Positions 36,823 to 60,709 of a stretch of 64,000 nucleotides of DNA are shown here, in pieces; position 1 is the stretch's first letter; the number at the start of each line of letters is the position of its first letter. A program made the translations under genes and the position numbers. The stretch is from NCBI GenBank assembly GCA_021847015.1, contig JAJZVW010000001.1:124001-188000 (forward strand), given 5' to 3'. This DNA is from Pseudomonadota bacterium (GTDB lineage Bacteria; Pseudomonadota; Alphaproteobacteria; Rhodospirillales; Magnetospirillaceae). The notes under the pieces are model-generated. The model saw nothing but the letters and a program-made list of their open reading frames with translations. It made no database searches and was not told the DNA's origin.

Positions 36823-37824
36823 ATGGCGGCTTTCAGGAAATGTTCGGGCGGATGGCAGGCGATCGTTCGGCGCGGTGGCGTCTACGAATCCCGCACGTTC
36901 GACACCAAGGCGGATGCCGAGGAGTGGGCGGCCGAGCTTGAGCGCAAAATCCGGCGGAACGAACATCTGGACAGCAAGGAGGCCGAGGAGACGACGCTGG
37001 GAGCAGCCCTCGACCGCTACCTTGTCGAAGCGATCCCCGGCAAGAAGGGAGAAACCCAGGATCGGCGCCGGATAGCCGCATGGAAGCGCGATGACCTATC
37101 CAAGAAGCCCTTGGCGAAGATCAAGGGCACCGACCTCGCAACCTGGCGCGACAAGCGGCTTGCCGCCGGCGTATCGGGTGGCACCGTCCGCCGGGACCTC
37201 GTCATCCTCTCCCACCTGTTCAACTTGGCCCGCAAGGAATGGGGCATGGCGGGACTTGCCAATCCCGTCGAGAACATCCGCCAGCCCTCGCCCGGGCGTG
37301 CCCGCGACCGCCGGCTGAATACGTCCCCGGACAAGGACGGCAAGACCGAGGAAGTGCGTCTTCTGGCGGCGTGCGAGGCGTCGGCGAATCCATGGCTGGC
37401 TCCCATGGTCAAGCTGGCCCTTGCCACAGCCATGCGTCAGAGCGAACTCCTCGCCCTCCGTTGGGAAAACATTGACCTACGGCGCAAGGTGGCCCACCTC
37501 GACGACACCAAGAACGGCGAGCGCCGCGACGTGCCTTTGTCGTCGGTCGCCGTGGCGGTGCTGGGGGCTTTGCCCCGCTCGGTGAACGGCAGGGTGCTCC
37601 CCGTCAGCGTCGGGCGCCTTAACATCCAGTGGAGGAAGGCCGTAGCCGCCGCCGGCCTCAAGGATTTTCATTTTCACGACCTGCGGCACGAAGCGACAAG
37701 CCGGCTGTTCGAAAAAGGCCTTAACCCGATGGAAGCGGCGAGCGTCACCGGGCATAAAACCCTTGCCATGCTTAAGCGTTACACCCATCTCCGGGCGGAA
37801 GACCTCGCCGCGAAGTTGGGGTAA
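36823..37824 (+). CDS. Tyrosine recombinase (integrase) of element 1
   Basis: A 333-residue phage-type integrase. An AP2-like/SAM-like N-terminus (GGWQAIVRRGGVYESRTFDT) binds arm sites, the core-binding domain follows, and the catalytic domain has Arg in ATAMRQSELLAL, HDLRHEATS (H-x-x-R), TGHKT and the nucleophile Tyr in LKRYTHL. It is closely related to the integrase at 39860 but lacks that protein's 44-residue insert. ATG 36823 has a strong Shine-Dalgarno. The DUF4160 gene starts two bases after its stop. Confidence 0.95.
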   Translation: MAAFRKCSGGWQAIVRRGGVYESRTFDTKADAEEWAAELERKIRRNEHLDSKEAEETTLGAALDRYLVEAIPGKKGETQDRRRIAAWKRDDLSKKPLAKIKGTDLATWRDKRLAAGVSGGTVRRDLVILSHLFNLARKEWGMAGLANPVENIRQPSPGRARDRRLNTSPDKDGKTEEVRLLAACEASANPWLAPMVKLALATAMRQSELLALRWENIDLRRKVAHLDDTKNGERRDVPLSSVAVAVLGALPRSVNGRVLPVSVGRLNIQWRKAVAAAGLKDFHFHDLRHEATSRLFEKGLNPMEAASVTGHKTLAMLKRYTHLRAEDLAAKLG

Positions 37825-39658: not shown

Positions 39659-39707
39659 TGGTGCCGGCGAGAAGACTCGAACTCCCGACCCGCGCATTAC
39701 GAATGCG
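39659..39707 (-). repeat. attL: 3' fragment of tRNA-Thr (left end of element 2)
   Basis: 49 bp matching the 3' part of the tRNA-Thr(CGT) gene at 60634-60682 with two mismatches (GAGAAGAC against GAAGAGAC). It covers the encoded CCA through the anticodon stem and then diverges, so it is not a functional tRNA. This is the duplication left by integration into the tRNA 3' end. Confidence 0.9.
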
Positions 39708-39772: not shown

Positions 39773-39808
39773 GAATGCCATTGCCAGTTTGGCATTCCAT
39801 TGGCATTC
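39773..39808. promoter_or_regulatory. Left arm-type integrase sites of element 2
   Basis: GAATGCCA (39773-39780) and direct TGGCATTC at 39790-39797 and 39801-39808. The same pair with the same 11-bp spacing recurs inside the right end at 60534-60552. Confidence 0.75.
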
Positions 39809-39859
39809 TTAGGGCGAAAGCGGGTGGCACTGCTCCCGTTTGACCATTGGAGCGGGCGC

Positions 39860-40993
39860 ATGGCGACATACCGGAAAAGGTCGGGAAATTGGCAGGCTAT
39901 CGTTCAGCGGGGCGGCGTCTGGGAATCCCGCACCTTCGACACCAAGGCGGACGCCGAGGAATGGGCTACTGAACTTGAGCGTAAAATTCGACGGAATGAA
40001 CACCTCGACAGCAAGGAAGCCGAGGAAACGAGCTTGCTCGATGCCCTCGACCGCTACCTGAAGGAAATCGTTCCCGGCAAGAAGGGCGAAGTGCAGGATC
40101 GCCGTCGTATCGCCGCCTGGAAGCGCGATGAACTGGCCAAGAAGCCGTTAGCCAAAGTGCGGGGAAGCGATCTCGCCTCGTGGCGCGACAAGCGCCTTGC
40201 CGCCGAGGTATCGGGCGGAACGGTTCGGCGTGATCTCGCCATCATTTCCCACCTGTTTAACGTGGCTGCCAAGGAATGGGGGATGACGGGGCTTGTGAAT
40301 CCGGTCGAAAACATCCGCGTGCCACCCCAGGGAAAAGCCCGTGACCGGCGCTTGAGCGCTCGCCCGGATAAGAAGGGCAAAACCGAGGCAGTGCGCCTTC
40401 TGGCGGCTTGCAAGGCGTCGGCAAATCCGTGGCTGGCGCCGATAGTGGAGGTGGCCCTCGCCACGGCCATGCGTCAAAGCGAGCTGCTTGCGCTCTCCTG
40501 GGACGCCATCGACTTGACGCGGAAGGTCGCCCGCCTCGAGGACACCAAGAACGGTGAGCGGCGGGACGTGCCGCTATCGTCGGCCGCCGTAAAGACCTTA
40601 AAGCGCGTTGCGCGGTTTACAGCGGGTTTCCCAGTGGCCATCGGTAAACGAAACATAAAGTTGCGAAAAACCATCAAGCCCGGTAGTCGGCGGGCCTTTC
40701 CATTCCACGCCGAGTCGGAGGGGCACCGCCTGGAAAGGCGTATCCGCATTCTTGATGGCCGGGTATTCCCCGTCAGCGTCGGGCGGCTGAATGTCCAGTG
40801 GCGAAAGGCGGTGAAGACGGCGGAGCTTGGAGATTTCCACTTCCACGACCTCCGCCACGAAGCGACCTCACGCCTATTCGAAAAGGGCCTTAACCCGATG
40901 GAGGCTGCGGCAGTTACGGGGCATAAGACGCTCCAGATGTTGAAGCGCTACACCCACCTGCGGGCTGAAGATCTTGCCGCAAAACTGGGCTGA
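39860..40993 (+). CDS. Tyrosine recombinase (integrase) of element 2
   Basis: A 377-residue integrase homologous along its length to the 36823 protein. Catalytic motifs are ATAMRQSELLAL, HDLRHEATS, TGHKT and LKRYTHL. Between the first catalytic Arg region and HDLRHEA it carries a 44-residue insert (encoded by about 40614-40745) absent from the other integrase; the insert is basic and its DNA has internal inverted repeats. ATG 39860 aligns with the other start. It lies just inside attL and should catalyse integration and excision of the island. Confidence 0.95.
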   Translation: MATYRKRSGNWQAIVQRGGVWESRTFDTKADAEEWATELERKIRRNEHLDSKEAEETSLLDALDRYLKEIVPGKKGEVQDRRRIAAWKRDELAKKPLAKVRGSDLASWRDKRLAAEVSGGTVRRDLAIISHLFNVAAKEWGMTGLVNPVENIRVPPQGKARDRRLSARPDKKGKTEAVRLLAACKASANPWLAPIVEVALATAMRQSELLALSWDAIDLTRKVARLEDTKNGERRDVPLSSAAVKTLKRVARFTAGFPVAIGKRNIKLRKTIKPGSRRAFPFHAESEGHRLERRIRILDGRVFPVSVGRLNVQWRKAVKTAELGDFHFHDLRHEATSRLFEKGLNPMEAAAVTGHKTLQMLKRYTHLRAEDLAAKLG

Positions 40994-41292: not shown

Positions 41293-42846
41293 ATGCCGAT
41301 TCTTCAGTGGCTCACCAGAGACCAGGACGTCAATGCGGCGCAGTCGGTGCCTTACCGCTTGCTGGAAGAGGTCGGGGACCTCGGTCACGGTGACCGCAAC
41401 GCGGGCAACATGCTCATCCAGGGCGACAACCTTCAGGCACTCAAGGCGCTCCTGCCGTTCTATGCGGGCCAGGTGAAGTGCATCTACATCGACCCCCCGT
41501 ACAACACCAAGTCTGCCTTCGAGCATTACGACGACAACCTCGAACACAGCCGCTGGCTTGCGATGATGTGGCCGAGGCTAGAACTCCTTCGCGACCTACT
41601 CTCCGAAGACGGCTCCATCTGGGTGTCGATCGACGACAATGAGGCGCACTACCTCAAAGTCATCATGGACGAGGTGTTCGGCAGGAACTGCTTCATTGCC
41701 TCCAATGTCTGGCAGAAGCGTTATTCACGCGAGAATCGGGAGGCTATCGGTGACGTCCACGAGTACATCTTCGTGTACGCTCGTAGTCCCGAGCGCTTCA
41801 AGGCAACCCGTAACCGCGTTCCTCTCGACGAGCAGCAGGCCAAGATCTACCGCAACCCGGACAACCGGGACGAAAAGGATCCGACCAAGAGGTGGCGCGG
41901 CCTCCCGATGACGGCCCAGGGCTACCGGCCCAACCAGATGTACAAGATCACCGCGCCGAACGGAAAAGTGCATGTGCCCCCGGAGGGACGGTGCTGGTCG
42001 ATGATCGAGCCTGAATTCGAGAAGCAGCTGGCGGCAGGAAGGATCTATTGGGGCAAGGATGGAAACGCCCAACCGAGCGTGATCCGTTTCCTCTCCGAGG
42101 TGGAAGGGCTCGTGCCGTGGACTTGGTGGCCGCACGATGAGGTGGGACACACCGATGAGTCCAAAAAGGAATGCAACGTCCTTTTCGGTGCCGACGTAAG
42201 CTTCGGCACGCCGAAGCCAGAAAGGCTTATCCATCGCATCCTGCACATCGCTACTAACCCCGGTGACCTCGTCCTTGACTCCTTTCTCGGATCGGGCACC
42301 ACCGCCGCCGTGGCCCATAAGATGGGGCGCCGCTGGATCGGCGTGGAAATGGGCGACCATGCGGAAAGCCACTGCGTCCGCAGGCTTGGAAAGGTCATCG
42401 ACGGCGAACAGGGTGGCATATCCGAAGAGGTCGGCTGGAAGGGCGGTGGCGGTTTCCGCTTCTACCGCCTCGGCTCCCCCGTCTTCGACGAGGAAGGCCG
42501 TCTGTGCTCCGACATCCGCTTCCCCGTCCTCGCCGCCCATGTGTGGTTCAGTGAGACCGGCACGCCGTGGAATGGGCGACCGGGCACGCCCTTCCTGGGC
42601 ATCCACGAAGGGCGGGCCTACGCCCTGCTCTACAATGGCATCCTCGGCGACAAGCGGCCGGACGGCGGCAACGTGCTGACCCGTCCTATCCTGCGGCTGA
42701 TCCGCGACGAGATCGCCGCGGCGGCACCGGCCTTCGACGGTTCGCTGACCGTCTACGGCGAGCGGTCGGCGCTGGCGGCGGCGAGCTTGGACCGCGAGAA
42801 CATCGCCTTCAAGCAGACGCCGTACGACGTGAAGGCAAGGCGATAG
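41293..42846 (+). CDS. mod: Type III restriction-modification methyltransferase (Mod)
   Basis: A 517-residue beta-class N6-adenine methyltransferase. The catalytic motif is IDPPYNTKSAFEHYDDNLEH, the AdoMet motif LDSFLGSGTTAAVAHKMGRRWIGVE, and the variable target-recognition region lies between (about 130-300). It protects host DNA and gives target specificity to the Res partner 9 bp downstream. No homopolymer or tandem repeat that would cause phase variation is visible. Confidence 0.93.
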   Translation: MPILQWLTRDQDVNAAQSVPYRLLEEVGDLGHGDRNAGNMLIQGDNLQALKALLPFYAGQVKCIYIDPPYNTKSAFEHYDDNLEHSRWLAMMWPRLELLRDLLSEDGSIWVSIDDNEAHYLKVIMDEVFGRNCFIASNVWQKRYSRENREAIGDVHEYIFVYARSPERFKATRNRVPLDEQQAKIYRNPDNRDEKDPTKRWRGLPMTAQGYRPNQMYKITAPNGKVHVPPEGRCWSMIEPEFEKQLAAGRIYWGKDGNAQPSVIRFLSEVEGLVPWTWWPHDEVGHTDESKKECNVLFGADVSFGTPKPERLIHRILHIATNPGDLVLDSFLGSGTTAAVAHKMGRRWIGVEMGDHAESHCVRRLGKVIDGEQGGISEEVGWKGGGGFRFYRLGSPVFDEEGRLCSDIRFPVLAAHVWFSETGTPWNGRPGTPFLGIHEGRAYALLYNGILGDKRPDGGNVLTRPILRLIRDEIAAAAPAFDGSLTVYGERSALAAASLDRENIAFKQTPYDVKARR

Positions 42847-42855
42847 GGGGACGCC

Positions 42856-45489
42856 ATGGAACTAAAGGAATACCAGAAGAAGACCATGGCGGTCCTGCGG
42901 GCGTTCTTCGAGGAGGCCCGTCTCGCCGGTCCGAAGGCGGCCTACGAACGGATTGTCCGCGAGCCGGAGCAAGCCAAGCGGTTGGGGCGCTACGCCGACG
43001 AATACCGTCCGCTGGAGGGTCTACCCAACGTGCCCTATGTCTGCCTCCGCCTGCCCACCGGCGGCGGCAAGACCATCCTCGGCGCCCACAGCGTCGAGGT
43101 GATCAAGAAGGCCTGGATCGAGAAAGACTTCCCAGTCGTCCTGTGGCTGGTGCCGTCCAACACCATCCGCCTCCAGACCGTCGACGCCCTGAAGAACGCC
43201 CGCCATCCCTATCGCCGTGTCCTCGACGAGGCCTTCGACGGGCGGGTGCGGGTCTTCGACATCGCCGACTTCGCCACCGTCCGCCCGCACGAGATCGGGA
43301 CCAACCTCTGCGTGGTGGTCGGCACCATCCAAACCCTGCGCGTCGGCAACACCGAAGGCCGCAAGGTCTACGCCCACCACGAGGACATGGCGCCGCACTT
43401 CTCCTCCGTGCCCCGCAACATGCCCGAGCTGGATCTCCTGCCCGATGGCTCGCCCAAGTTCTCCTTCGCCAACCTGCTATACATCCACCGCCCGCTGATG
43501 GTGGTCGACGAGGCTCACAACGCCGTCACCGGGCTGACCCGCGAGATGCAGCAGAGGGTGAACCCCTGCGCCATCGTCGAGTTCACGGCGACGCCGCGAC
43601 TGGCCAGCAACACGCTCCACAGCGTCACCGCACAGGAGCTGAAGGCCGCGGAAATGATCAAGCTGCCGATCATGCTCTCCGAGCACGATTCGTGGCAGAA
43701 CGCCGTCAACGGCGCCGTCGCCACCCGCGCTGCGCTGGAAGAGGCCGCGCGGGGCGAAACGGAATACATCCGGCCCATCGTCCTGTTTCAAGCCCAACCG
43801 AAAAATCAGGAGGTGACGGTCGAGGTGCTGAAGAGGCACCTGATCGAGGTCGAGAACATTCCCGAGAACCGCATCGCCGTGGCCACCGGCGACCAGCGGG
43901 AACTGGACGGCCTTAACCTGTTCGACGAGAACTGCCCGATCGAGTACGTCATTACCGTCGAGGCCCTCAAAGAGGGTTGGGACTGCTCGTTCGCCTACGT
44001 CTTCTGCTCGGTGTCGAACATCCGCAGCGCCACCGACGTGGAGCAGCTTCTCGGCCGTGTCCTGCGTATGCCCTATGCCCGCCGCCGCAAGGCGCCAGAG
44101 TTAAACAAGGCGTACGCCCACGTCTCTGAGACCTCGTTCCAGCAGGCGGCACAGGCCCTGTGCGACAAGCTGGTCAGCATGGGCTTCGAGGAGGACGAGG
44201 CGCTGGAGAGCATCGAGAGCGCCCAGCGGCGGTTTGACGACTTCGAGGAGGGGCTATTCGCCCCCAAGGACAGGCAGAAGCCCATCTTCGTCCACTCCTT
44301 CAAGGCGTCTTCCGAGGCCGTCGAGACATTGAAGGGCCATGCCAGCGTCAAGGTCGAGACCACGCCGGCCGGCGAAGTGAAGGTCGTCATCGAAGGCCGC
44401 CTAGCCCCCGAGGTCGAGGAGGTCATCACCTACTCCATGCCGGAATCGGCGCGCGGCGAATTCAAGGAAGCGGTGAAGCGGTATCGGCTGGAAACCAAGG
44501 ATAGGCTGTCCCCCGCCGAGCACGGGGAGCGTTTCTCAGTCCCCCGCCTCATGGCGGACGTGCAGGGAGAGTTGGAATTCGCCGACGTCGACCTTTTCAT
44601 GGAGGCGTTCCCGTGGTCCGTGCTGGACATGCCGGCACGGCTGGAGCCATCCGAGTTCGACGTCCGCGAGACCGCCCGCAGCTTCGAAATCGACCTCGAC
44701 GGCAAGAAGGTCGTGTACTCGTTCGCAAGCGAGGACGAACAGCTCCCCCTCGACATCGATGTGGAGGGGTGGACCGAGGAGGCGCTGACCCTTTGGCTCG
44801 ATCGCCAAGTGCGCCAGCCCGACATCTCTCAGTCCGAGCTTGTCCGCTGGCTCCGCGACGTAGTCACCAATCTGACCAAGGTTCGGAAACTCCACCTCAA
44901 TGCGTTGATGCGGTGCAAATTCATCCTTGCCCGTAAGGTCCGGGACAAGATCGACGCCCTCCGAATGGCGGCCCGCGCGGGGGCATACCAGCAATTCCTA
45001 TTCGCGCCCGAAGCCAAGGTCGGGGCCACCTTCGACCACGCCTTCGAATTCCGAAGCGGCATGTACGCCGATGTGCGCCGCTACCATGGACGCCTGAAGT
45101 TCCGGAAGCACTTCCTCGGCCCCGAAAACGTTCCAGCCTTCGACGGCAAGGCCGGCGGCGAGGAGGAGATCTGCGCTGGGGTCATCGACAGCATCGCCGA
45201 AGTCAAATACTGGGTCCGCAATGTGTCCCAGCACAAAGACTCGTTCTACCTGCCTACGGCCACCGACAGGTTCTACCCCGACTTTATCGCCCTGCTGGAA
45301 GACGGCCGCCTACTCGTGGTCGAGTACAAAGGCGAACTCACCGCCGGCACCGACGACACCCGCGAGAAACGCGCCGTCGGCTTGCTGTGGGAAAGGGCTA
45401 GCGGCGGCAAGGGCCTTTTCCTGCTGGCCGAGAAGGATGTCGGCGGGTTGGACGTGCGGGGTCAGATCAAGCTCAAGGTGGGAAAGTAA
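42856..45489 (+). CDS. res: Type III restriction enzyme, helicase/nuclease subunit (Res)
   Basis: An 877-residue superfamily 2 helicase-nuclease. Walker A is RLPTGGGKTILGAHS (about residue 65), Walker B VVDEAHN, motif III VEFTATPRLAS, and a later LLGRVLRMPYARR is motif VI. The C-terminus holds a PD-(D/E)xK nuclease (FYPDFIALLEDGRLLVVEYKG). With Mod it should cut unmodified DNA after translocation. The frame is intact, so the system appears functional. Confidence 0.93.
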   Translation: MELKEYQKKTMAVLRAFFEEARLAGPKAAYERIVREPEQAKRLGRYADEYRPLEGLPNVPYVCLRLPTGGGKTILGAHSVEVIKKAWIEKDFPVVLWLVPSNTIRLQTVDALKNARHPYRRVLDEAFDGRVRVFDIADFATVRPHEIGTNLCVVVGTIQTLRVGNTEGRKVYAHHEDMAPHFSSVPRNMPELDLLPDGSPKFSFANLLYIHRPLMVVDEAHNAVTGLTREMQQRVNPCAIVEFTATPRLASNTLHSVTAQELKAAEMIKLPIMLSEHDSWQNAVNGAVATRAALEEAARGETEYIRPIVLFQAQPKNQEVTVEVLKRHLIEVENIPENRIAVATGDQRELDGLNLFDENCPIEYVITVEALKEGWDCSFAYVFCSVSNIRSATDVEQLLGRVLRMPYARRRKAPELNKAYAHVSETSFQQAAQALCDKLVSMGFEEDEALESIESAQRRFDDFEEGLFAPKDRQKPIFVHSFKASSEAVETLKGHASVKVETTPAGEVKVVIEGRLAPEVEEVITYSMPESARGEFKEAVKRYRLETKDRLSPAEHGERFSVPRLMADVQGELEFADVDLFMEAFPWSVLDMPARLEPSEFDVRETARSFEIDLDGKKVVYSFASEDEQLPLDIDVEGWTEEALTLWLDRQVRQPDISQSELVRWLRDVVTNLTKVRKLHLNALMRCKFILARKVRDKIDALRMAARAGAYQQFLFAPEAKVGATFDHAFEFRSGMYADVRRYHGRLKFRKHFLGPENVPAFDGKAGGEEEICAGVIDSIAEVKYWVRNVSQHKDSFYLPTATDRFYPDFIALLEDGRLLVVEYKGELTAGTDDTREKRAVGLLWERASGGKGLFLLAEKDVGGLDVRGQIKLKVGK

Positions 45490-47130: not shown

Positions 47131-47556
47131 TCAGTTTCCGGCGGCCTTCGTCGTACCGCTCCCGCCAAAGCAGTTCTTGGCGTTGCCAAGGGTGGTGAGG
47201 TTTTCCTTGCGCAGCTTGGCGTCGGCGGCGTCCTGCTGCGCTTGGGCCCGGGCGTTGCCCTGCTCGCCCGCGACCTGACCGCCGGCCAGGGCCGGGATGA
47301 TCCCGACGACGGGGATCATGCTGAGAGCGCCGGTGGCCACCTCGGCGGCGGTGGTGCCGGTCTTGGCCTTGTCGCCCGCCGCGTTGGCGTCGGCGATGGT
47401 CTTGTCCATCGTCGCGATCTCCGCCTGGATTTGCGGACACGTCAGCGCGTTGTCGCCCGGCTTCACCCGGTCGATCCGGCTCGTTACCTCCGGCTGCTGC
47501 GCGCAGGCCGACAGGGTGGCGATGGTCAGCGCGGCGATGATCGAAATCTTCTTCAT
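47131..47556 (-). CDS. Predicted small lipoprotein
   Basis: A 141-residue protein with a lipobox (MKKISIIAALTIATLSACAQ, Cys18). The mature part has a helical region with TMDKTIADANAAGDKAKTG, a hydrophobic glycine-rich segment (ALSMIPVVGIIPALAGG) and an Ala/Gln-rich helix before NAKNCFGG. Anchored in an envelope membrane. It heads the leftward five-gene cluster. A terminator-like hairpin lies just upstream. Confidence 0.75.
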   Translation of the reverse strand: MKKISIIAALTIATLSACAQQPEVTSRIDRVKPGDNALTCPQIQAEIATMDKTIADANAAGDKAKTGTTAAEVATGALSMIPVVGIIPALAGGQVAGEQGNARAQAQQDAADAKLRKENLTTLGNAKNCFGGSGTTKAAGN

Positions 47557-47580
47557 GGTGGTCTTCTCCGTCCCGAGCCC

Positions 47581-47621
47581 AAAAACGCGACAGGCCCCGC
47601 CGGCTGGACCGGGGGGCCTGT
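47581..47621 (-). terminator. Minus-strand terminator or attenuator before the lipoprotein gene
   Basis: Read on minus, a GC-rich stem (ACAGGCCCC... with ...GGGGCCTGT, inner CCGG/CCGG) is followed by CGCGTTTTT. It is upstream of the lipoprotein ATG, so it either ends a transcript from the right or attenuates this operon. Confidence 0.6.
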
Positions 47622-48172
47622 TGCATCTCCCCCCTGTCGGCCGGCGTTACCCGGTATCCGAGGGGGAGTCCCTGGACGGCTCGCCGGGGTGTCCGGCGAA
47701 CCACGATTACCTTCCGGCCCATTGCCTAGCGTCTCCGTGCCAGGGGGGAACCGGGGTGGCGCTTCCCGGAGCGGCGAGGGCCACCAGCCCTGCGGTCCAG
47801 AAAACGAAGTTCATGCTACACCGGATGCGGGAAAAATTCCACCTGCTGTCCACTCGGGCAGCGCCTCCACTTGAATCCCAACTGACCAGAGTCCCGCCCG
47901 GAGACGTTGTCCGCGCCAGAACTAGGACGGTGACTTAGTGCCCATCCCGGTCGGCGGGTTAACCAACGTCGTGCTCCAAACCAGACATTTCAAAGCACAT
48001 CCCATGCAGTTTCCAGTCAGTATCGGCGCCGCCGCGCGGAGCGCTTTTTTTTCAGCACACGTGACAATATGAGGTCTTGACCCGGGGTGCCCAGAAGTAC
48101 ACCCTGCTCCAGTGAATAAGGCTTTGTTGTGGCGCTTCAGTTGGCGCCTCGCGGAATCATTCGGCGCTGGAT
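47622..48172. other. Long intergenic region, no supported gene
   Basis: About 550 bp. The part to 47800 is very GC-rich and full of short inverted repeats (for example CGCCGG-GGTGT-CCGGCG near 47680); a 35-codon signal-like minus ORF (start 47814) lacks a Shine-Dalgarno and is not called. The part from 47940 is AT-richer, with an eight-T run near 48050. No known riboswitch class could be assigned. Confidence 0.4.
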
Positions 48173-48200
48173 TTGACCCTGGACAACCGATAGTTAGGAT
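48173..48200 (+). promoter_or_regulatory. Promoter of the cysteine-peptidase operon
   Basis: TTGACC (48173-48178), 16-bp spacer, TAGGAT (48195-48200), 40 bp before the peptidase ATG, which has GGGGAG as Shine-Dalgarno. Confidence 0.5.
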
Positions 48201-48240
48201 GCTATCCCGCTAATCGGGAGCCGAAGCGGGGAGCCAACTG

Positions 48241-49698
48241 ATGTATAAGTGGATTTCGTTGGCGACGAGCGCCGATCTCGCGCAACTGCCCGACCAAATA
48301 ACCTCTGAGTACGACCCTGTCCGTGTCGCCGGAATCCTGAGCCAAGGGATATCTGATGCAGTGAAGGGGGTCCTGATTGAGTATAATTATATCGATAAAG
48401 ACTATCGTAGCACGTACTATAATTTTTATTCCAAAAAGGGTCAGCGTTATCGGGACGATTGTGTGCGACTGCACTTTTTTGACCAGACCGTGCAGTTCGA
48501 TGACGCCAACCTCGCGCTGATTTGTCCAGATTCCGCACTCACCGATCATTACTTCGGCTACATGGTGTTGCGGCCAACGGGTATTGCAGCTATCGGCAGG
48601 ACGGTTCTGTCACCGGACATCCGCAAGGGCGCAGGTCGGTTCATCATAACCGCCGACCACAAGGTGCATCTGCTCGGCTACAAGCTCTCGATACGAGGCT
48701 TCCCCTCGATGGACCAACACGTCGATATTTCAGTGTGCGCGCATGCCGCCTGCTGGTCGATCCTGCGTCATTACAGCGAGCGCTACAGCATCCATCGTGA
48801 ATATTTGGTCCACGAAATCACGATGATGGCGCACGAGTTCAATCCTGGCGGCTTAGTGCCGTCCAAGGGATTGCAGATCGCCCATGCAGAACGTGTGTTT
48901 TTGGAGGCGGGCACATTCCCGGTGCACATCGCACGCAATAGCCAGACTAAAGCCGGCGACCATCCGTTCTATCGGCAACTGATCGCGTACGTGGAATCGG
49001 GCTTCCCGCTGTTCGTCGCGATGCATTCGCGGGGTCACGCAGTTGCGCTCGTAGGCTATGAATGGCGGCAGCCGGCGAAAGGTCAGCCCGGCCTCCGGTA
49101 TGCTTGGGATGAAGTCGAATCACTGGCCGTCGTGGACGACAATCACCTGCCATACATGTCTATTCCGCGGATGGGCGGGCACCCATACGCGGCTGACGCG
49201 ATTGACGCTTTTATCGTGGCTCTGCCTGAAAAGGTGTACTATCCGGCGGATGCTGTTGATCGGTTGGCGCCGGCCCTGTTCACCCTTGGTGGCGCTTTGG
49301 GTCTGCCCCCAAAAGATGATACGATCGTCCGCTACTTCATTACGACCGGATCGGCCTATCGCCATTTCGCCCGTGAGCATGCGTCGGAATTTGATCCGAA
49401 GCTCTTGCAGTACATCATGCAGCTGCCATATGCCCAGTTCATTTGGGTCGTGGAATTTGCGACCGAGGATCAGTGGGCTGCCGGCAAGATCGAGGCCCGG
49501 GCTGTGATCGATGCCACTGCGAGCTTGCGTGAACGGATCCCTTTGTGGCTATTCCACAGCCGCACTGACGCCTTGATTTTCGATCGCAGGCAGGTCGGTC
49601 AAACTGTCGCAGGTATGGGTTGCTTGAAACTTGCGCAAGTCAACCACGGAGGTTTCTCCCGGATGGATCGCAACCTTCGGCCAACTCAAACTAAATAA
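48241..49698 (+). CDS. Papain-fold (C39-like) cysteine peptidase of unknown family
   Basis: A 485-residue soluble protein. After about 155 residues with no recognised domain comes a papain/C39-like core: DQHVDISVCAHAACWSILRH gives the nucleophile (C166, or C171 next to W172), SRGHAVALVGYEW gives H266, and LAVVDDNHLPY gives the D/N at 299-301. Q159 could form the oxyanion hole. The C-terminal 150 residues are unassigned. No signal peptide, ABC transporter or bacteriocin precursor accompanies it, so it is not an ordinary C39 exporter protease. It sits beside a ubiquitin-like system and may cleave a modifier or target (inference). Confidence 0.7.
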   Translation: MYKWISLATSADLAQLPDQITSEYDPVRVAGILSQGISDAVKGVLIEYNYIDKDYRSTYYNFYSKKGQRYRDDCVRLHFFDQTVQFDDANLALICPDSALTDHYFGYMVLRPTGIAAIGRTVLSPDIRKGAGRFIITADHKVHLLGYKLSIRGFPSMDQHVDISVCAHAACWSILRHYSERYSIHREYLVHEITMMAHEFNPGGLVPSKGLQIAHAERVFLEAGTFPVHIARNSQTKAGDHPFYRQLIAYVESGFPLFVAMHSRGHAVALVGYEWRQPAKGQPGLRYAWDEVESLAVVDDNHLPYMSIPRMGGHPYAADAIDAFIVALPEKVYYPADAVDRLAPALFTLGGALGLPPKDDTIVRYFITTGSAYRHFAREHASEFDPKLLQYIMQLPYAQFIWVVEFATEDQWAAGKIEARAVIDATASLRERIPLWLFHSRTDALIFDRRQVGQTVAGMGCLKLAQVNHGGFSRMDRNLRPTQTK

Positions 49699-49745
49699 CA
49701 TATTGAGGGGCAGAGAGCCCTATCGGGGATGTGAAGGAGTTCACC

Positions 49746-49937
49746 ATGTCGGACAACAAAGACGACAAGCCAGTTGAAAGACCCAACGTGCTTCAGGGGC
49801 TCGCGCCTGTTGATGCCGGTTTGTTACAGGACTTCCTCAAGGAAATGGACGAGCAGGTAATTCCTGACATCGTTAAGGTTGTGGAAGAGCGGCGATTGGA
49901 AGCGGCGGAAAGTCGCCAGTGGCAGCTAAAGTGCTGA
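49746..49937 (+). CDS. Small acidic protein downstream of the peptidase
   Basis: A 63-residue protein starting at ATG 49746 with AAGGAG upstream (MSDNKDDKPVERPNVLQGLA...). It is mostly one charged helix (LLQDFLKEMDEQVIPDIVKVVEERRLEAA) and ends in QWQLKC. It lacks a Gly-Gly leader and a signal peptide. Encoded 47 bp after the peptidase, it could be its partner, inhibitor or substrate. No family recognised. Confidence 0.6.
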   Translation: MSDNKDDKPVERPNVLQGLAPVDAGLLQDFLKEMDEQVIPDIVKVVEERRLEAAESRQWQLKC

Positions 49938-49943
49938 GGGAAC

Positions 49944-50330
49944 TTATTCGGTTGGCTTTTTTAAGCGCTCATAGGCTGCCCGCACAATCGCTTCCACGGC
50001 TTCAGCGGCCTCAGCATCCAGGGCCGGATCAGCCCGCAGCAGGCTGGAAATTTGAACCATCGGCTCTGGTTGCGCAACCCGATAGGGTGCATCGACAAAA
50101 TCCGAAGGATTGAGCCCCGCCCAGGCCGATAGCGCGGCTAGGCTGGCTGCGTCTGGGCGTCGGCCTTGTGCCATCCGCGTTAGGGTCGAAGCGCTGACGC
50201 CGGTAGCCGTTGCCACCTGCTTCCACGTGACGCGTCGAGCCTCGACCGTCGCTTCCAGCGCTCGGTAAAAGGCATCGCCATCGAAGCCCTTATTTTCGGT
50301 GGCGGTCTTTGCGCGATCAGAAATTGCCAT
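49944..50330 (-). CDS. XRE-family transcriptional regulator
   Basis: A 128-residue protein with a Cro/CI-type helix-turn-helix (WKQVATATGVSASTLTRMAQGRRPDAASLAALSAWAGL, about 35-72) and a C-terminal helical region. It is divergent from the ubiquitin-like operon and convergent with the small protein gene. Inverted repeats built on ATTGC/GCAAT overlap its own start codon and the divergent promoter, so it likely represses both. Confidence 0.88.
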   Translation of the reverse strand: MAISDRAKTATENKGFDGDAFYRALEATVEARRVTWKQVATATGVSASTLTRMAQGRRPDAASLAALSAWAGLNPSDFVDAPYRVAQPEPMVQISSLLRADPALDAEAAEAVEAIVRAAYERLKKPTE

Positions 50331-50387
50331 TTAGCAATTGACTTCCTATATCGGTTCGTGTAGCTAATTGCTTTATAGCAATTTAGC
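50322..50387. promoter_or_regulatory. Operators and promoter between the XRE gene and the ubiquitin-like operon
   Basis: O1: AATTGC...GCAATT within about 50322-50339 overlaps the XRE start codon. O2: GCTAATTGCT (50363-50372) faces AGCAATTTAGC (50377-50387). A rightward promoter TTGACT (50338-50343), 17-bp spacer, TAGCTA (50361-50366) puts its -10 on O2 and its -35 on O1, so binding would block transcription of both genes. Confidence 0.6.
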
Positions 50388-50412
50388 GCCGGAATCGCAA
50401 GGAGAAAGGCAC

Positions 50413-50913
50413 ATGGCTGGCGAGCACATCGATATCCTTGAGACCGAGGGACTCAAGCACAACCGCTTGGTAACAGTGGAGGTGAACGAGCGCCCGGTGA
50501 AGCTCCTGGGGCCGCGTGAAACTGGTGAGCAGATCAAGATTGCGGCGATCGAGCAGGGCGCCGAGATTGGCACGGACTATCTATTGGATGAGGTCTCCCA
50601 CGATGGCATCCATCGCCGCATCCAAGATCATGAGCACATCGAGCTCCATGATCACATGGTGTTCCTTGCGCGTCGTCCAGAACATGTGATGGTCGTTACT
50701 GTCAACGAACAGGCGGTGAAGCTCGAAGGCGACTCTGCCACCGGCTTGGAGATCAAGGCGGCCGCTATCGCCCAAGGTGCGGCAATCCAGATTAACTTCG
50801 TCCTGCAGGAGGAGTTGCCCAACGGGACCAGCCGCGTTATCGGCGATCATGATCGCATCCATCTGCGGGAACATTTGCGGTTCACGGCGATCGCGCCGGA
50901 CGACAACTCTTAG
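50413..50913 (+). CDS. Protein with two ubiquitin-like (multiubiquitin) repeats
   Basis: A 166-residue protein consisting of two homologous beta-grasp domains of the multiubiquitin type: residues 19-88 (LVTVEVNERPVKLLG...ETGEQIKIAAIEQGAEI...IQDHEHIELHDHMVFLA) and 93-160 (MVVTVNEQAVKLEG...ATGLEIKAAAIAQGAAI...IGDHDRIHLREHLRFTA). The 12-residue N-terminus is flexible. The C-terminus is APDDNS, with no Gly-Gly there or elsewhere. It is first in an operon with E2-like and JAB-E1 genes, so it is the presumed modifier. ATG 50413 follows AAGGAGAAAGG. Confidence 0.88.
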   Translation: MAGEHIDILETEGLKHNRLVTVEVNERPVKLLGPRETGEQIKIAAIEQGAEIGTDYLLDEVSHDGIHRRIQDHEHIELHDHMVFLARRPEHVMVVTVNEQAVKLEGDSATGLEIKAAAIAQGAAIQINFVLQEELPNGTSRVIGDHDRIHLREHLRFTAIAPDDNS

Positions 50914-50925
50914 GCGGAGGCTGCC

Positions 50926-51312
50926 ATGAAAGTGGAAGTCTCTGCCGGCATCGAAGACCTTAGGAAACAGTTCCCGGCCGCCAACATTACAACACGGGAC
51001 GATGGGCAAGGGGGCGCCTACATAGTGATCGAGCCGATTGCCCTTGGCAGCCGTTTCCTCCCTGCGCAGACGTGGGTCGGCTTCCACATCCCCGCGCAAT
51101 ACCCGTATGCCGACATATACCCTGTGTTCATCGGCGGAGACATTCGCCGCGCTGACGGCATTGGCTTTGTGGCCCCTGTAACGATGGGACACACGTTCGA
51201 AGGAAGGCAAGCCCTGCAAGTCTCCCGTCGCAACAGCGCGGCTCAGAACGGTAGGCAGAAAGTTTGTGCCAAGGTTCTCAAGGTTTTGGACTTTTTGGAA
51301 AGGCTACCTTAA
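50926..51312 (+). CDS. E2-like protein (prokaryotic E2 family E type)
   Basis: A 128-residue protein with a degenerate UBC-like fold: strands in GAYIVIEPIALGSRFLPAQTW, the IPAQYPYADIYPVFIGGDIRR segment (equivalent of the E2 P-x-x-YP turn), then MGHTFEGRQALQVSRR and a C-terminal helix. It contains a single Cys (C114) in that last helix, not where a classical E2 nucleophile sits. It lies 12 bases after the modifier gene; its stop overlaps the E1 gene start (TAATG). Function in conjugation is inferred from the operon. Confidence 0.8.
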   Translation: MKVEVSAGIEDLRKQFPAANITTRDDGQGGAYIVIEPIALGSRFLPAQTWVGFHIPAQYPYADIYPVFIGGDIRRADGIGFVAPVTMGHTFEGRQALQVSRRNSAAQNGRQKVCAKVLKVLDFLERLP

Positions 51313-52682
51313 TGGCCAAGTGTAAGCTTCGCATCACCCGTGAGGACTATGAGTCGCTTTACCATCACCTCTACCAGGAGGATGGTGATGAGCATGGCGC
51401 CGTTCTACTTGCAGGCCTCTCCTATTTAAACCAGCTTCCGCTCCTCACAGTGCGAGAGGTGCATTTGGCCAAGGATGGCGTCGATTACGTTGCAGGCAAG
51501 ATCGGTCACCGCGCCCTGGTCCCACAATTCATTCACCGTCTGATTACACGCGCCCGGGACGAGCGGTTGGTTTTTCTAGCTGTACATAATCACGGCAGCG
51601 ACCGAGATGTTGGGTTCAGCAATATCGACATTCGGTCCCATGAGCGAGGCTATCCTGCCCTCTTGCAGATCGCCAAGGGCATGCCGGTCGGCGCCCTGGT
51701 GCTAGGGCGACGGGCAATGCAGGCAGATCTCTGGATGCCAGATGGCAGCCGTTGTGAGCTTGATCAGGCGACCGTGATTGGAATGAAGATTGATCGCCTC
51801 ACGCCGCAGCCCGTGAAAGATTTGGCCTCCACCGATGATCAATACGACCGCCAGATACGCATGTTCGGTCTTGCGGGACAGAGGGCTCTAGCGCGGGCCC
51901 ACGTCGCTGTGATCGGGTTGGGCGGGATCGGCAGCCTAGTCGTGGAATATCTCGCGCGATTGGGCGTCGGCCACTTCACGCTTATTGATGATGATGTGGT
52001 CGAAGCGTCTAACCTGTCTCGGATTGTCGGCGCCTCGCTTTCCGATGCGGAAAATCAGACCCCCAAGGGTGAGGTAGCAGAGCGCCTCATCCTACAGGCC
52101 AATCCATTAGCCCACATTGAGCGCCTCGATGCAGACGTGACCAAAGCGTCAGTGGCCGCCCAGCTCAAAGGTTGCGACTACATCTTTCTTGCTGCGGACT
52201 CGATGCGGGCGCGGCTGCTGGTAAACGCATTGGTCCATCAACACCTCATTCCTGCGGTTCAGCTGGGCTCGAAGATCCGCGCCGATGAAAAAGGACGGGT
52301 CTTAGATACCTTTAGCGCAATTCGTCCACTGCGACCGGGTGCTGGCTGTCTGTGGTGTAATCAGTTGATCGATCCCAGTTTGTTGGCCAAAGAAGCCAAG
52401 ACAGACGCGGAACGGAAAGAGCAAGCCTATGGCGTTGAAGAACCCAACCCGAGCGTTATCAGCCTTAATGCGGTTGCAGCAGCGCACGGAGTTAATGATT
52501 TCCTGATGGACTATCTCGGTTTACGCGATGACCGAACCTTGTATTACCAGCATGTCCATGGGCAGAGCGGAAAGCTGCAACTGGTCGAACCGCGTAGAGA
52601 TGCCGAATGTTCGGAATGCTCGAAGGACGGCATGCGTTTCGCCCGCGGTGATGGGGTGGACTTGCCTTGTACAGAAGGATAG
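51312..52682 (+). CDS. JAB metalloprotease - E1 (ThiF) fusion protein
   Basis: A 456-residue two-domain enzyme. Residues 1-150 are a JAB/MPN domain with a complete JAMM set: E28, H92-N-H94, S103 and D106 (HNHGSDRDVGFSNID). Residues about 170-430 are a ThiF/UBA-type E1 adenylation domain with GLGGIGS (202-208), LIDDDVVEASNLSR and a Zn-site CLWC (346-349) plus CSEC (433-436). One polypeptide would thus both activate and remove the ubiquitin-like modifier. The start overlaps the E2 stop. The gene ends 40 bp before an IS remnant. Confidence 0.9.
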   Translation: MAKCKLRITREDYESLYHHLYQEDGDEHGAVLLAGLSYLNQLPLLTVREVHLAKDGVDYVAGKIGHRALVPQFIHRLITRARDERLVFLAVHNHGSDRDVGFSNIDIRSHERGYPALLQIAKGMPVGALVLGRRAMQADLWMPDGSRCELDQATVIGMKIDRLTPQPVKDLASTDDQYDRQIRMFGLAGQRALARAHVAVIGLGGIGSLVVEYLARLGVGHFTLIDDDVVEASNLSRIVGASLSDAENQTPKGEVAERLILQANPLAHIERLDADVTKASVAAQLKGCDYIFLAADSMRARLLVNALVHQHLIPAVQLGSKIRADEKGRVLDTFSAIRPLRPGAGCLWCNQLIDPSLLAKEAKTDAERKEQAYGVEEPNPSVISLNAVAAAHGVNDFLMDYLGLRDDRTLYYQHVHGQSGKLQLVEPRRDAECSECSKDGMRFARGDGVDLPCTEG

Positions 52683-52722
52683 CGGGCGCGGGATACTGAC
52701 CTGAGACCGAAGTTTCATCCGC

Positions 52723-53349
52723 CTATGGATAGAGCCTCGTGCGGTTTTGATGCCCGAAACGGGCGGTGATGGCAAGCAGGGCTGGGGCATGCCCCAGCCC
52801 TGCTTGCTTTGCGGCCTTGGCGGCGGCTTCGGCGGGGGTGATGCCGCCGAGACCGGAATGGGGCCGCGCATGGTTGTAGTCGTCCCGCCAGTCGGCCAAG
52901 ACGGCACGGGCATGGGGCAATGACTCGAACAGCGTCTCGTTGAGGCATTCGTCGCGGAGCCTGCCGTTGAAGCTCTCGACGAAGCCGTTCTGCATGGGCT
53001 TACCCGGCGCGATGTAATGCCATTCCACTTGGCGGTCCTGGCTCCAGCGCAGCATCGCCATGCTCGTGAATTCGGTCCCGTTGTCGCTGACGACCATCAG
53101 CGGCCTGCCGCGCCTGGCGAGCAAGCCATCCAATTCGCGGGCAACGCGGACGCCGGACAGCGAGGTGTCGGCCACCAGCGCCAGGCACTCGCGGGTAAAG
53201 TCATCAACCACGGCCAGGATGCGAAACCGGCGGCCGTCGGTGAAGGCGTCGGCGACAAAGTCCAGTGACCAGCGCTGATTTGGTCCCTGAGGGATCGTCA
53301 TCGGTGCCCGCGTGCCTAAGGCGCGTTTGCGTCCGCCTTGACCTGCCAC
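52723..53349 (-). pseudogene. IS3-family transposase OrfB, 5'-truncated remnant
   Basis: The C-terminal 200 residues of an IS3-type DDE transposase ([28 protein letters not shown], then [23 protein letters not shown]). The N-terminus and OrfA are missing; the frame opens at a non-native GTG near the left end of the next IS. The 3' part contains a 36-bp perfect palindrome in frame. It borders the ubiquitin-like operon and may have displaced its 3' flank. Confidence 0.85.
52772..52807. repeat. 36-bp perfect palindrome with GGGGCATGCCCC core
   Basis: A loopless perfect palindrome of 36 bp inside the truncated transposase gene. A second 36-bp palindrome with the same 12-bp core lies at 55100-55135 at the end of another transposase gene. 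Confidence 0.85.
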
Positions 53350-53402
53350 GGGAATCTTCCTCCAGTTTGAAGTAGAGTCCGGCCCTTCGGAAGGACGGAC
53401 TT

Positions 53403-53669
53403 ATGAAACTCAGCAGGTTCAGCGAGGAGCAAATTATCGGCATCCTGAAGGAGCAGGAGGCCGGGGCGAAGACGGCGGATGTGTGCCGCCGTCATGGGAT
53501 CAGCCAGGCGACGTTCTACAAGTGGAAGGCCAAGTACGGCGGCCTTGACGTGTCGGAGGCGCGACGGCTGAAGGCGTTGGAAGATGAGAACGCCCGGCTG
53601 AAAAAGCTACTGGCGGAATCGATGCTGAACGAGGCCGCGCTCCGCGATCTTTTAGGAAAAAAATGGTGA
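53403..53669 (+). CDS. IS3-family transposase OrfA
   Basis: An 88-residue OrfA with the HTH RFSEEQIIGILKEQEAGAKT and a leucine-zipper region (RLKALEDENARLKKLLAESM). It ends in a run of seven As before TGG, the usual -1 slippage site giving the OrfAB transposase; OrfB is in the -1 frame. Its partner OrfB is disrupted, so no active transposase is expected. Confidence 0.92.
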   Translation: MKLSRFSEEQIIGILKEQEAGAKTADVCRRHGISQATFYKWKAKYGGLDVSEARRLKALEDENARLKKLLAESMLNEAALRDLLGKKW

Positions 53670-54076
53670 GGCCCGCCGCCAAGCGGGAAGCTGTCGCCCA
53701 TCTGCAAAGCTGCTTTGGGATGAGCGAGCGTCGGGCCTGCGTCGTGATCGCGGCGGATCGCAAGATGGTCCGCTATCGATCGATCCGCCCTGATGATGTC
53801 GCCCTGCGCGGTCGCCTTCGCGATCTCGCTCACCAACGGCGCCGGTTCGGCTATCGGCGGCTGTTCATCCTGCTGCGTCGCGACGGGGAGCCATCGGGGA
53901 TCAGCCGCGTCTACCGGCTTTACCGCGAGGAAGGACTGGCGGTTCGCAGGCGGCGTGGACGGCGCAAGGCTATCGGCAGTCGTGCGCCCATCCTGGTGGA
54001 AGCGGTGCCCAGAGGTGGCCCCCGAAAATCGGACAGGGTGTTAAGCTATTCCCCATCCTAAGAAGGACTGGGACTG

Positions 54077-54364
54077 ATGGGAAAAGTGACGAGGAAGCGC
54101 TACAGCGCGGATTTCAAGGCGAAGGTTGCGCTGGAGGCGATCAAGGGGGAACTAACGCTGGCGGAATTGGCCGCCAAGCATGGTATCCACCAGACGATGA
54201 TTGCGGCGTGGAAGCGTCAGGCCATCGAGGGCATGGCGGCAACATTTTCCGGCAAATCAGAGGCGAGCACGGCGGCCAGCGAAGCCGAGGTCGCCAAGTT
54301 GCACGCCAAGATCGGGCAACTGGTCGTGGAGCGGGATTTTTTGTCCAAAGCCTTCGGTCGATGA
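54077..54364 (+). CDS. IS3-family transposase OrfA (nested IS)
   Basis: A 95-residue OrfA: KRYSADFKAKVALEAIKGE, LAAKHGIHQTMIAAWKRQA HTH and a C-terminal zipper-like helix (AEVAKLHAKIGQLVVERDFLS). It overlaps OrfB by four bases. Confidence 0.92.
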   Translation: MGKVTRKRYSADFKAKVALEAIKGELTLAELAAKHGIHQTMIAAWKRQAIEGMAATFSGKSEASTAASEAEVAKLHAKIGQLVVERDFLSKAFGR

Positions 54365-55134
54365 GTGTCGAGCGGAGGCGGCAGATGATCGAACCGAACC
54401 ATCCCCGGCTGTCGGTGGTGCAACAGTGCGCCCTGGTGTCCATCAGCCGGTCGGCGTTCTATTACAGCCCGACCGGGGAAAGCCCGCTCAATCTGGTGCT
54501 GATGCGCCTCATCGACGAGGCATTCCAGGAATGCCCGTTCTACGGCGCCCGGCAGATGGCCCGCCACCTGCGGCGCCAGGGCTACACGGTGGGACGCAAG
54601 CGGGTGGCGCGGCTGATGGCGAAGATGGGGCTGTCGCCCATCTACCAGAAACCCCGGACCAGCGATCCTCATCCGCAGCACCCGACCTACAAGTACCTGC
54701 TGAAGGGGCTGGTGATCGACCGCCCCAATCAGGTCTGGTGCGCCGATATCACTTACATCCCGATGCGGCGCGGCTTTCTGTACCTGGTGGCGATCATGGA
54801 CTGGGGCAGCCGCAAGGTGCTGGCCTGGCGGCTGTCCAACACCATGGAGGCCGACTTCTGCATCGAAGCACTGGAGGAGGCCCTGGCCCGCTTCGGCAGG
54901 CCGGAGATCTTCAACACCGACCAGGGCAGCCAATTCACCAGCCCCCGCTTCACCGGAGTGCTGAAAGACGCCGGGGTGCGGATCAGCATGGACGGGCGGG
55001 GGCGCTGGATGGACAACGTCTTCATCGAGCGCCTGTGGCGGTCCATGAAGTACGAATGCGTCTACCTGCACGCCTTCGAGACCGTCATCGAACCGCGCCG
55101 TCACCATGGCCGGGGCATGCCCCGGCCATGGTGA
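54361..55134 (+). CDS. IS3-family transposase OrfB (nested IS), altered C-terminus
   Basis: A 257-residue DDE integrase. Visible are an HTH_21-like region (FYGARQMARHLRRQGY), WCADITYIPM (first Asp), FNTDQGSQFTS (second Asp) and VFIERLWRSMKYE (Glu). After YLHAFET the sequence departs from the usual ending and stops within a 36-bp palindrome, so about 40 C-terminal residues appear lost and activity is doubtful. Confidence 0.85.
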   Translation: MSVERRRQMIEPNHPRLSVVQQCALVSISRSAFYYSPTGESPLNLVLMRLIDEAFQECPFYGARQMARHLRRQGYTVGRKRVARLMAKMGLSPIYQKPRTSDPHPQHPTYKYLLKGLVIDRPNQVWCADITYIPMRRGFLYLVAIMDWGSRKVLAWRLSNTMEADFCIEALEEALARFGRPEIFNTDQGSQFTSPRFTGVLKDAGVRISMDGRGRWMDNVFIERLWRSMKYECVYLHAFETVIEPRRHHGRGMPRPW

Positions 55135-55135
55135 C
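55100..55135. repeat. 36-bp perfect palindrome with GGGGCATGCCCC core (second copy)
   Basis: A loopless perfect palindrome at the 3' end of the nested OrfB, containing its stop codon. It shares length and the central 12 bp with the one at 52772-52807, while the outer 12 bp of each arm differ. Confidence 0.85.
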
Positions 55136-55922
55136 CACCAGCGCACTGGCGGCATGATCGTGAACCGGGAATAGCTTAGCAAAGCCGCCAAACTGTCCAA
55201 ACGGACGGGGCCACCTCTCCCAACGCCCGCTGGTCGCTGGACTTCGTCCATGACCAGATGGCCAGTGGCCGTCGCTTCCGTGTCCTCAACATCGTCGACG
55301 ACGTGACGCGGGAGTGCTTGGCCGCTGTCCCCGACACGTCGATTTCAGGGGTGCGCGTCGTCCGTGAGCTTACGGCGCTCATCGCCCGGCGCGGCAAGCC
55401 GGGGATGATCGTGTCCGACAACGGGACGGAATTGACCTCCAACGCCGTGCTGAAATGGGCGCAGGACCACCGGATCGATTGGCATTACATCGCCCCCGGC
55501 AAGCCGATGCAGAACGGCTACATCGAAAGCTTCAACGGCCGGATGCGCGATGAGCTGCTCAACGAGACGGTCTTTACCAGCCTGCCTCAGGCCCGAGCCG
55601 CCCTCGCAGGCTGGGTGGCCGATTACAACACCACCAGGCCCCACTCGGCCCTCGGTTATCAGACCCCGGCGGCTCACGCCGCCAAACTCAAGGCAATGGG
55701 GCCAGCATCTCCGCCCGTCCGGGCTCCGATCCTGGCCCCATTGCCCACACCGCGCCAGACGGCGTAATCTTGGCTCGGACTCTACCGATGGCTGGATGAA
55801 AAACCCACGGCAGGTCACGAATAACATACCGATCGACATGATACCGTAAGTGCAAGCGAACGCCGTTTGCGCAGGCCACCACCATTTCCTGCTTCAGAAG
55901 GCAGCCCAACTCCAATTCTCAA

Positions 55923-60633: not shown

Positions 60634-60709
60634 TGGTGCCGGCGAAGAGACTCGAACTCCCGACCCGCGCATTACGAATGCGCTGCTCTACCAACTGAGC
60701 TACGCCGGC
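60634..60709 (-). tRNA. tRNA-Thr (anticodon CGT); right attachment site of element 2
   Basis: A full cloverleaf on the minus strand: acceptor GCCGGCG/CGCCGGC, D arm GCTCAGTTGGTAGAGC, anticodon arm GCGCA-TTCGTAA-TGCGC, T arm with TTCGAGT, and encoded CCA. The anticodon CGT reads ACG (Thr). Its 3' 49 bp are duplicated at 39659-39707, so the island's right end rebuilds an intact tRNA. Confidence 0.96.

Follow-up and report, generated by a model that had tools for sequence, protein, structure and literature searches.

We analysed a 64,000-nucleotide stretch of DNA, hereafter the window, from a member of the alphaproteobacterial family Magnetospirillaceae (assembly GCA_021847015.1, contig JAJZVW010000001.1, positions 124,001 to 188,000), with the focus on a compact ubiquitin-like conjugation operon on its forward strand. 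Three intact genes make up this operon, encoding a modifier with ubiquitin-like (UBL) repeats (50413–50913), an E2-fold protein (50926–51312) and a JAB (JAMM) isopeptidase fused to an E1-type adenylation domain (51312–52682), with a 12-bp gap between the first two and a one-base overlap between the last two. Upstream on the same strand lie the genes for a predicted papain-like cysteine protease of no named family, here called U (48241–49698, 485 aa), and for its 63-aa partner (49746–49937), followed on the reverse strand by a divergent Cro/CI-type helix-turn-helix (HTH) repressor gene (49944–50330). Coordinates, families and folds all confirm the initial annotation, which had read 50413–52682 as an operon of modifier, E2-like protein and JAB-E1 fusion; what it overlooked is a modifier without a glycine tail, an E2 active site without a cysteine, an E1 without a conserved non-zinc cysteine, and the linked protease.

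The modifier (166 aa) scores 58.7 bits against the multiubiquitin family PF14452 (Multi_ubiq; cut-off 24.5), with the match divided between two stretches, in agreement with the two ubiquitin-like repeats previously claimed, and its beta-grasp repeats are placed at 50470–50673 and 50695–50901. The UBL profile also finds multi-ubiquitin proteins of solved structure (9cd2, E 7e-13). Relatives of the operon were collected by one scan of genome contigs with two JAB peptide patterns, the best 80 of 88 being kept, and they span 14 named phyla with metagenome bins frequent among them. Left out before counting were loci L001–L006, two extended operons (L013, L014), L076 (the same record as L008), identical sequences, and E1 proteins below 400 aa or E2 proteins below 100 aa; modifier counts combine the genome-scan loci, the window and six plasmid loci. 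The modifier of the window ends in -AIAPDDNS, and the DDNS tail is kept in 72 of the 80 loci with a complete modifier, with glycine within the last four residues in none of the 80. Among distinct modifiers (n = 76 from 14 phyla, window included), 68 end in DDNS and 74 in serine, the remaining ends being HEDS (three), EDNS, QEDS, QDVS, TSWR and EPTC. The TSWR and EPTC modifiers (L063 and L073) carry extra residues past the conserved tail (DDTS-WR and DDNS-SEPTC), which would suit trimming of a precursor by the JAB domain. Among PF14452 loci sampled in the phylum of the window, serine ends recur in other types (-TVQS, -TDKS), together with one modifier ending in -TFGL and others joined to an E2-like part.

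The second protein (128 aa) scores 21.8 against Prok-E2_E, under the cut-off of 25, and its AlphaFold model (predicted local distance difference test, pLDDT, 93.9) finds BubB as best fold match (9eae_C; Z 12.4, root mean square deviation 3.0 over 123 residues), followed by UBE2L6 and other E2s at Z 9.3 and below, so that structure prediction upholds its earlier description as E2-like. Foldseek likewise returned BubB for this model (probability 1.00, E 0.0022), with nothing at E ≤0.001, and the E2 sequence profile matches BubB weakly (E 0.006–0.04). Ser100 is invariant in all 77 distinct rows, as one of four or five invariant columns in the E2 alignments, while 36 of the 77 proteins are free of cysteine; the single cysteine of the window's E2 lies within the last helix and is not conserved. 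In the model, Ser100 sits 13 residues ahead of that helix (113–125), where eukaryotic E2s have their catalytic cysteine. Other Bub types also carry a serine in this motif (WFSWH in L013 and L014, RWSRH in the solved BubB).

The third protein (456 aa, counted from the ATG at 51312) matches ThiF at 130 bits, and its profile aligns with the solved Citrobacter BubCD over profile positions 6–426 of 482 (E 3.4e-40). A Pfam scan of this protein left the JAB family unmatched, and the JAB assignment rests on the BubCD alignment together with the JAMM residues E27, H92, H94, S103 and D106, each present in 78/78 rows (window included). The complete JAMM set, the ThiF match and the BubCD alignment thus agree with the initial annotation in placing a JAMM protease and an E1 adenylation domain in one enzyme; of the two catalytic residues it had named, H92 was right and ‘E28’ was off by one, the glutamate being E27. 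The near-invariant cysteines of the E1 are limited to a zinc-type set of four (C346 and C349 in 78/78, C433 and C436 in 77/78), the next most frequent being C288 (60/78) and the residue-81 column (50/78). A serine in the PSVI-LN motif, Ser381, is kept in 75 of 78 rows. The E1 was rejected as a ThiF/MoeB equivalog, with a best NCBIfam match of 94 bits against a cut-off of 275. PADLOC matched it to E1-E2 models in the ThiF part only and gave no match for the modifier, the E2 or U.

The three genes are conserved together, as a survey of gene neighbourhoods confirmed: an E2 profile match lies upstream of the E1 in 78 of the 80 genome-scan loci (exceptions L032 and L094; the match in L066, at a contig edge, is weak at E 0.05), and a UBL gene was not found by profile in six loci (L032, L041, L048, L066, L083 and L094), some of which are at contig ends. 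One of these, L032 (7986–9434), has a JAB-E1 gene without profile-detected UBL or E2 despite 8 kb of upstream sequence. Against the Bradyrhizobium copy in L015, with synonymous sites partly saturated, ratios of nonsynonymous to synonymous substitution rates of 0.16 (UBL), 0.17 (E2), 0.08 (JAB-E1), 0.06 (HTH), 0.08 (U) and 0.09 (partner) indicate purifying selection on all six genes. Two E1 queries matched 54 and 113 of 72,556 plasmid records at E 1e-20; JAB-E1 relatives were absent from the viral contigs searched, and the E1 had no match at 1e-10 in the phage records searched. Rfam matched nothing in 47500–53500. The extended Bub-like operons in L013 (9221–11084) and L014 (9328–11327) have an added phosphotransferase and DUF6527 gene, with modifiers that end in GGGV or ANFG.

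We identify the operon as Bub-type (bacterial ubiquitination-like), corresponding to type 6e of Iyer 2006, within a compact three-gene ‘-DDNS’ subfamily; it is real, intact, conserved and of a known kind, and therefore not a new kind of system. With Bub (Citrobacter BubCD and BubB; PDB 9ea4, 9ea5, 9ea8, 9eae and 9eav) it shares the JAB-E1 fusion, the E2 fold, a PF14452-type modifier and the serine of the E2 motif, whereas it differs in belonging to the three-gene -DDNS subfamily, in the protease linked in two clades and in its E2 motif QVSRR, which lacks the histidine found in RWSRH and WFSWH. For type 6e, section 14 of the original account describes one to three UBL repeats and a cysteine-less E2/RWD-like protein between UBL and JAB-E1 (PMC1779556). 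The operon of the window has the same UBL repeats, the intervening E2 without conserved cysteine and the JAB domain N-terminal to the E1, but contains no zinc-finger gene, and neither the -DDNS tail nor a linked protease is mentioned in that section. The Bil system (BilA-BilB-BilC-BilD) shares UBL, E1, E2 and JAB components, and the BilA structure 8u38 matches the UBL profile (E 7e-5); however, the window has no conserved catalytic-type cysteine and its JAB is fused to the E1. In Bil, E1 and E2 act through cysteine and the JAB is a separate gene. Type II CBASS (cyclic oligonucleotide-based antiphage signalling system), with Cap2 and Cap3, has in common an E1 relative (Cap2 7to3, E 6e-6) and a JAB, but the window has no E1-E2 fusion. 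No cyclic-nucleotide synthase (CD-NTase) family matched among the window proteins scanned, a part of all open reading frames (ORFs), and the operon is confined to three genes, so the earlier verdict of ‘not CBASS’ stands. CBASS, Bil and sulfur-carrier readings were rejected on such membership features; MccB- and Pup-like uses of the tail were considered as general background.

A serine tail without glycine, an invariant E2 Ser100 and near-invariant E1 cysteines that are all of zinc type fit conjugation through an oxyester rather than a thioester. Bub is said, in work attributed to Ye et al., to use oxyester and not thioester intermediates. We propose that the JAB-E1 would adenylate the carboxylate of the terminal serine, that the modifier would then move as an oxyester to E2 Ser100, perhaps via E1 Ser381, before being handed on to a target, and that the fused JAB would take it off again; the divergent HTH protein would hold the operon off until stress, and U with its small partner (48241–49937), co-travelling in two lineages, may add a second proteolytic function. 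Taken as a whole, a Bub-type ‘-DDNS’ conjugation operon with such a serine-ester cascade, and a linked protease possibly adding proteolysis, is in our judgement a likely description of the locus. It would represent a minimal, intact and widely spread ubiquitin-like cascade without conserved catalytic cysteines, in which the near-invariant non-glycine tail allows point mutants to test the ester hypothesis directly.

Several points weigh against this interpretation. Ser100 was placed at the active site by order and by spacing before the last helix, without superposition, and in the HMMER alignment to BubB its column falls on the tryptophan adjoining the BubB serine, one residue off, which makes the serine-serine correspondence our own inference. 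Ser381 is replaced by alanine in L060 and L073, and in the extended operons L013 and L014, with a gap in L083; the alanines mean that this residue is not essential in every such E1. The frequency of C288 and of cysteine in the residue-81 column leaves a cysteine a possible role. The choice of loci by JAB pattern means that the sample covers one subfamily, and the seven modifiers behind the UBL profile are likewise all of the -DDNS tail type. A role of the operon in antiphage defence is plausible; a 2026 account reports 544 Bub operons, with phage protection not demonstrated for Bub (PMC13373217).

The incomplete conservation of Ser381 would also suit a cascade in which the E2-fold protein serves as an RWD-like scaffold without catalytic activity and the E1 passes the adenylated modifier directly to its target, in line with Iyer 2006, where the sandwiched E2/RWD domain is called cysteine-less and likely inactive (PMC1779556). 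A mere scaffold, however, would not need a Ser100 that is kept in every E2 among so few invariant columns, and we hold such a scaffold to be unlikely. That a thioester route persists through one of the less conserved E1 cysteines, as in an ordinary Bil-like cascade, we regard as very improbable, for although both positions hold cysteine in a majority of rows, neither is invariant, almost half of the E2s have no cysteine at all, and C288 directly precedes the conserved D289, which is not where E1 catalytic cysteines lie.

The linked protease module is the part of the locus most worth new work. Searches of Pfam, NCBIfam, PADLOC, PHROGs and PDB sequences gave nothing significant for U; a weak NCBIfam match to nucleoside-diphosphate kinase (E 0.067, 13 bits against 155), a PDB-chain match of the U profile (E 0.69) and a tail-fibre PHROG match of the small partner (E 0.006) were all dropped. 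Its structural model (mean pLDDT 77.5) contains a papain-like domain at about residues 130–331, matching a C39 peptidase at Z 11.9 over 129 residues, followed by a CDI (contact-dependent inhibition) toxin (Z 10.6), UfSP2 (10.5), cathepsins (about 10) and UfSP1 (9.5), while Foldseek by itself gave a best E of 0.024 and none ≤0.001. The model is weak by the catalytic cysteine (mean pLDDT 54 for block 161–170, and under 50 for 185–211). The putative catalytic residues are Q159, C166, H266 and D299, of which C166 and H266 are present in 38/38 covering rows and D299 in 36/38, with asparagine in the other two; two C-terminal pieces of split genes, which do not cover these residues, reduce the 40 U rows to 38, and the near-copies L015 and L016 are both retained. 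By its predicted fold and its Cys-His-Asn/Asp residues, U is a papain-like (clan CA) cysteine peptidase, resembling C39 and other papain-like peptidases in fold and in its cysteine, histidine and aspartate but differing by extra N- and C-terminal parts.

Relatives of U neighbour the operon in a further 18 loci (L008, L015–L021, L024–L027, L030, L031, L033, L038, L084 and L087), upstream on the same strand in some and downstream and convergent in others, so that placement varies while linkage is kept. All-against-all clustering of neighbours in 86 loci showed U, present in 19, to be the sole neighbour recurring in more than eight loci besides HTH and ImmA, with operon-gene and opposite-strand clusters excluded; the HTH cluster of this analysis may hold chance ORFs. 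On the E1 tree, U fills two clades, in 8/8 and 9/11 rows (four changes; 0/500 shuffles as low), and both clades mix phyla. Of the two clade rows without U, L034 stops at a contig edge and has a 20-residue match (E 0.003), and L035 has none. Distances of U and E1 over 16 loci correlate at r 0.97 (p 0.0001), and within the clades at 0.85 and 0.84 (p ≤0.003); together with the mixing of phyla, this makes transfer as one cassette the simplest account. A small ORF (60–73 aa) adjoins U in 18 aligned loci, and the small proteins of the two clades are only weakly alike; the partner in the window has the C-terminus -RQWQLKC. The protease gene may belong to the Bub tagging system, and U with its partner is a concrete candidate for a further component acting with such a system.

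The occurrence of U away from Bub points the other way. In a sample of 398 genomes of the phylum, U is found in 20 and PF14452 in 15, and by genome label the genome of the window is the single one with both; in the 14 neighbourhoods fetched from the 19 other U genomes, compact-type Bub profiles gave nothing at E 1e-3. Four scanned neighbourhoods of Bub-free U genes contain a type I restriction-modification (R-M) system, a prokaryotic Argonaute (pAgo) with a helicase, transposition genes or a phage portal gene. Among the copies beside the operon, U is split into two frames in L017 and L084. An independent, defence-like module of U and its partner that merely shares islands with Bub is therefore a strong competitor, to which we give nearly an even chance; it sits poorly with the near-complete occupancy of two phylum-spanning E1 clades, the correlated distances and a linkage that stays while position shifts. 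Whichever holds, the lack of significant Pfam, NCBIfam, PADLOC and PHROGs matches makes the module worth testing alone. More tentatively, the -DDNS Bub operons of the two cross-phylum lineages could be two-protease systems, each combining a cysteine-free serine-ester cascade with a dedicated papain-like protease and its partner of about 60 residues, the protease either replacing an ImmA/CapP role or acting as a second deconjugase or effector.

U relatives also occur in four plasmid records, in two of which U adjoins a Bub operon, each of a different type, and in four viral contigs; the phage records searched gave no match at 1e-3. On a Pseudomonas aeruginosa plasmid (L125, 4110–10019), another Bub type comprises HTH, ImmA, multiubiquitin protein, ThiF and DUF6527 genes, after which come a small ORF and a U homolog of 726 aa. 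An IMG/VR contig (L128, 1438–3113) has a 69% identical U and the small partner upstream of a phage portal gene, with no Bub match, and is the single Bub-free U locus in which small-partner profiles found the partner among those searched. On a Hymenobacter plasmid (L126, 5586–9443), a U homolog without Bub lies beside a caspase-family protein and a DEAD/DEAH helicase, and in L129 (7821–15556) a U homolog adjoins a pAgo (Piwi) gene and an HKD+Snf2-type helicase.

One specific role for U would be to act on the Bub modifier, either as a second deconjugase or as a peptidase that processes it, as the papain-like fold with its conserved cysteine, histidine and aspartate, the Ufm1 proteases UfSP2 and UfSP1 among the fold matches and the presence of U beside a different Bub type would allow. 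Yet C39 peptidases and toxins match its fold as well or better, cathepsins do so about equally, and U is common without Bub, so that we consider this role doubtful.

The divergent HTH protein, with HTH_31, HTH_26 and HTH_3 matches at or above cut-off, agrees with the earlier claim that the operon has its own repressor. A perfect 7-nt inverted repeat between its gene and the UBL gene (50366–50383, AATTGCT-TTAT-AGCAATT) is a candidate operator. HTH relatives occur in 42 loci, including the window and every other U-bearing locus. In contrast to CapH+CapP regulation, the window has the HTH protein without ImmA/IrrE, no ImmA profile match with an HExxH motif lying within 6 kb of the E1. Across the sample, an ImmA-type gene (HExxH) lies within 6 kb in 44/57 non-U loci against 1/18 U loci with room upstream (Fisher 6e-8), the exception being L087, where it is 5 kb away; all 18 U loci, both near-copies counted, keep the HTH gene, and non-U loci of the same HTH type have ImmA in 15/19. 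These figures would agree with U standing in for the CapP-like ImmA/IrrE metalloprotease that inactivates the HTH repressor, and thereby serving this lineage of Bub as its stress switch. The contrast reflects two to three independent transitions on the tree (pairs test) and therefore has no phylogenetic power, the P. aeruginosa plasmid carries HTH, ImmA and U together, and the 14 neighbourhoods of Bub-free U genes searched yielded no such HTH relative. We accordingly think such a switch improbable.

The operon and the protease genes lie in an island of about 21 kb delimited by 35-bp direct repeats, the left att-like copy of the tRNA-Thr end at 39673–39707 and the right copy at 60648–60682, inside the tRNA-Thr(CGT) gene (60634–60709, reverse strand). 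Between them are a tyrosine integrase (39800–40993, forward strand; Phage_integrase, 100 bits), a type III R-M-like pair (41293–45489), U, its partner, the HTH gene, the operon and insertion sequence (IS) elements. Matches to N6_N4_Mtase and ResIII support the type III R-M neighbour noted in the initial annotation. Of the ‘mobilizable element’ described there, the integrative part is supported by an integrase next to a tRNA-Thr repeat, whereas mobilizability is not confirmed, as no mobilization gene was recognised among the scanned window proteins. The operon (G+C 0.57) and U (0.56) are poorer in G+C than the remaining stretches measured, which range over 0.62–0.72. Several IS-type transposase pieces (rve domains) lie directly downstream of the operon (52723–55767), and a caspase-domain protein (34837–36483, reverse strand; Peptidase_C14, 76 bits) is encoded immediately beyond the island, close to another integrase (36676–37824).

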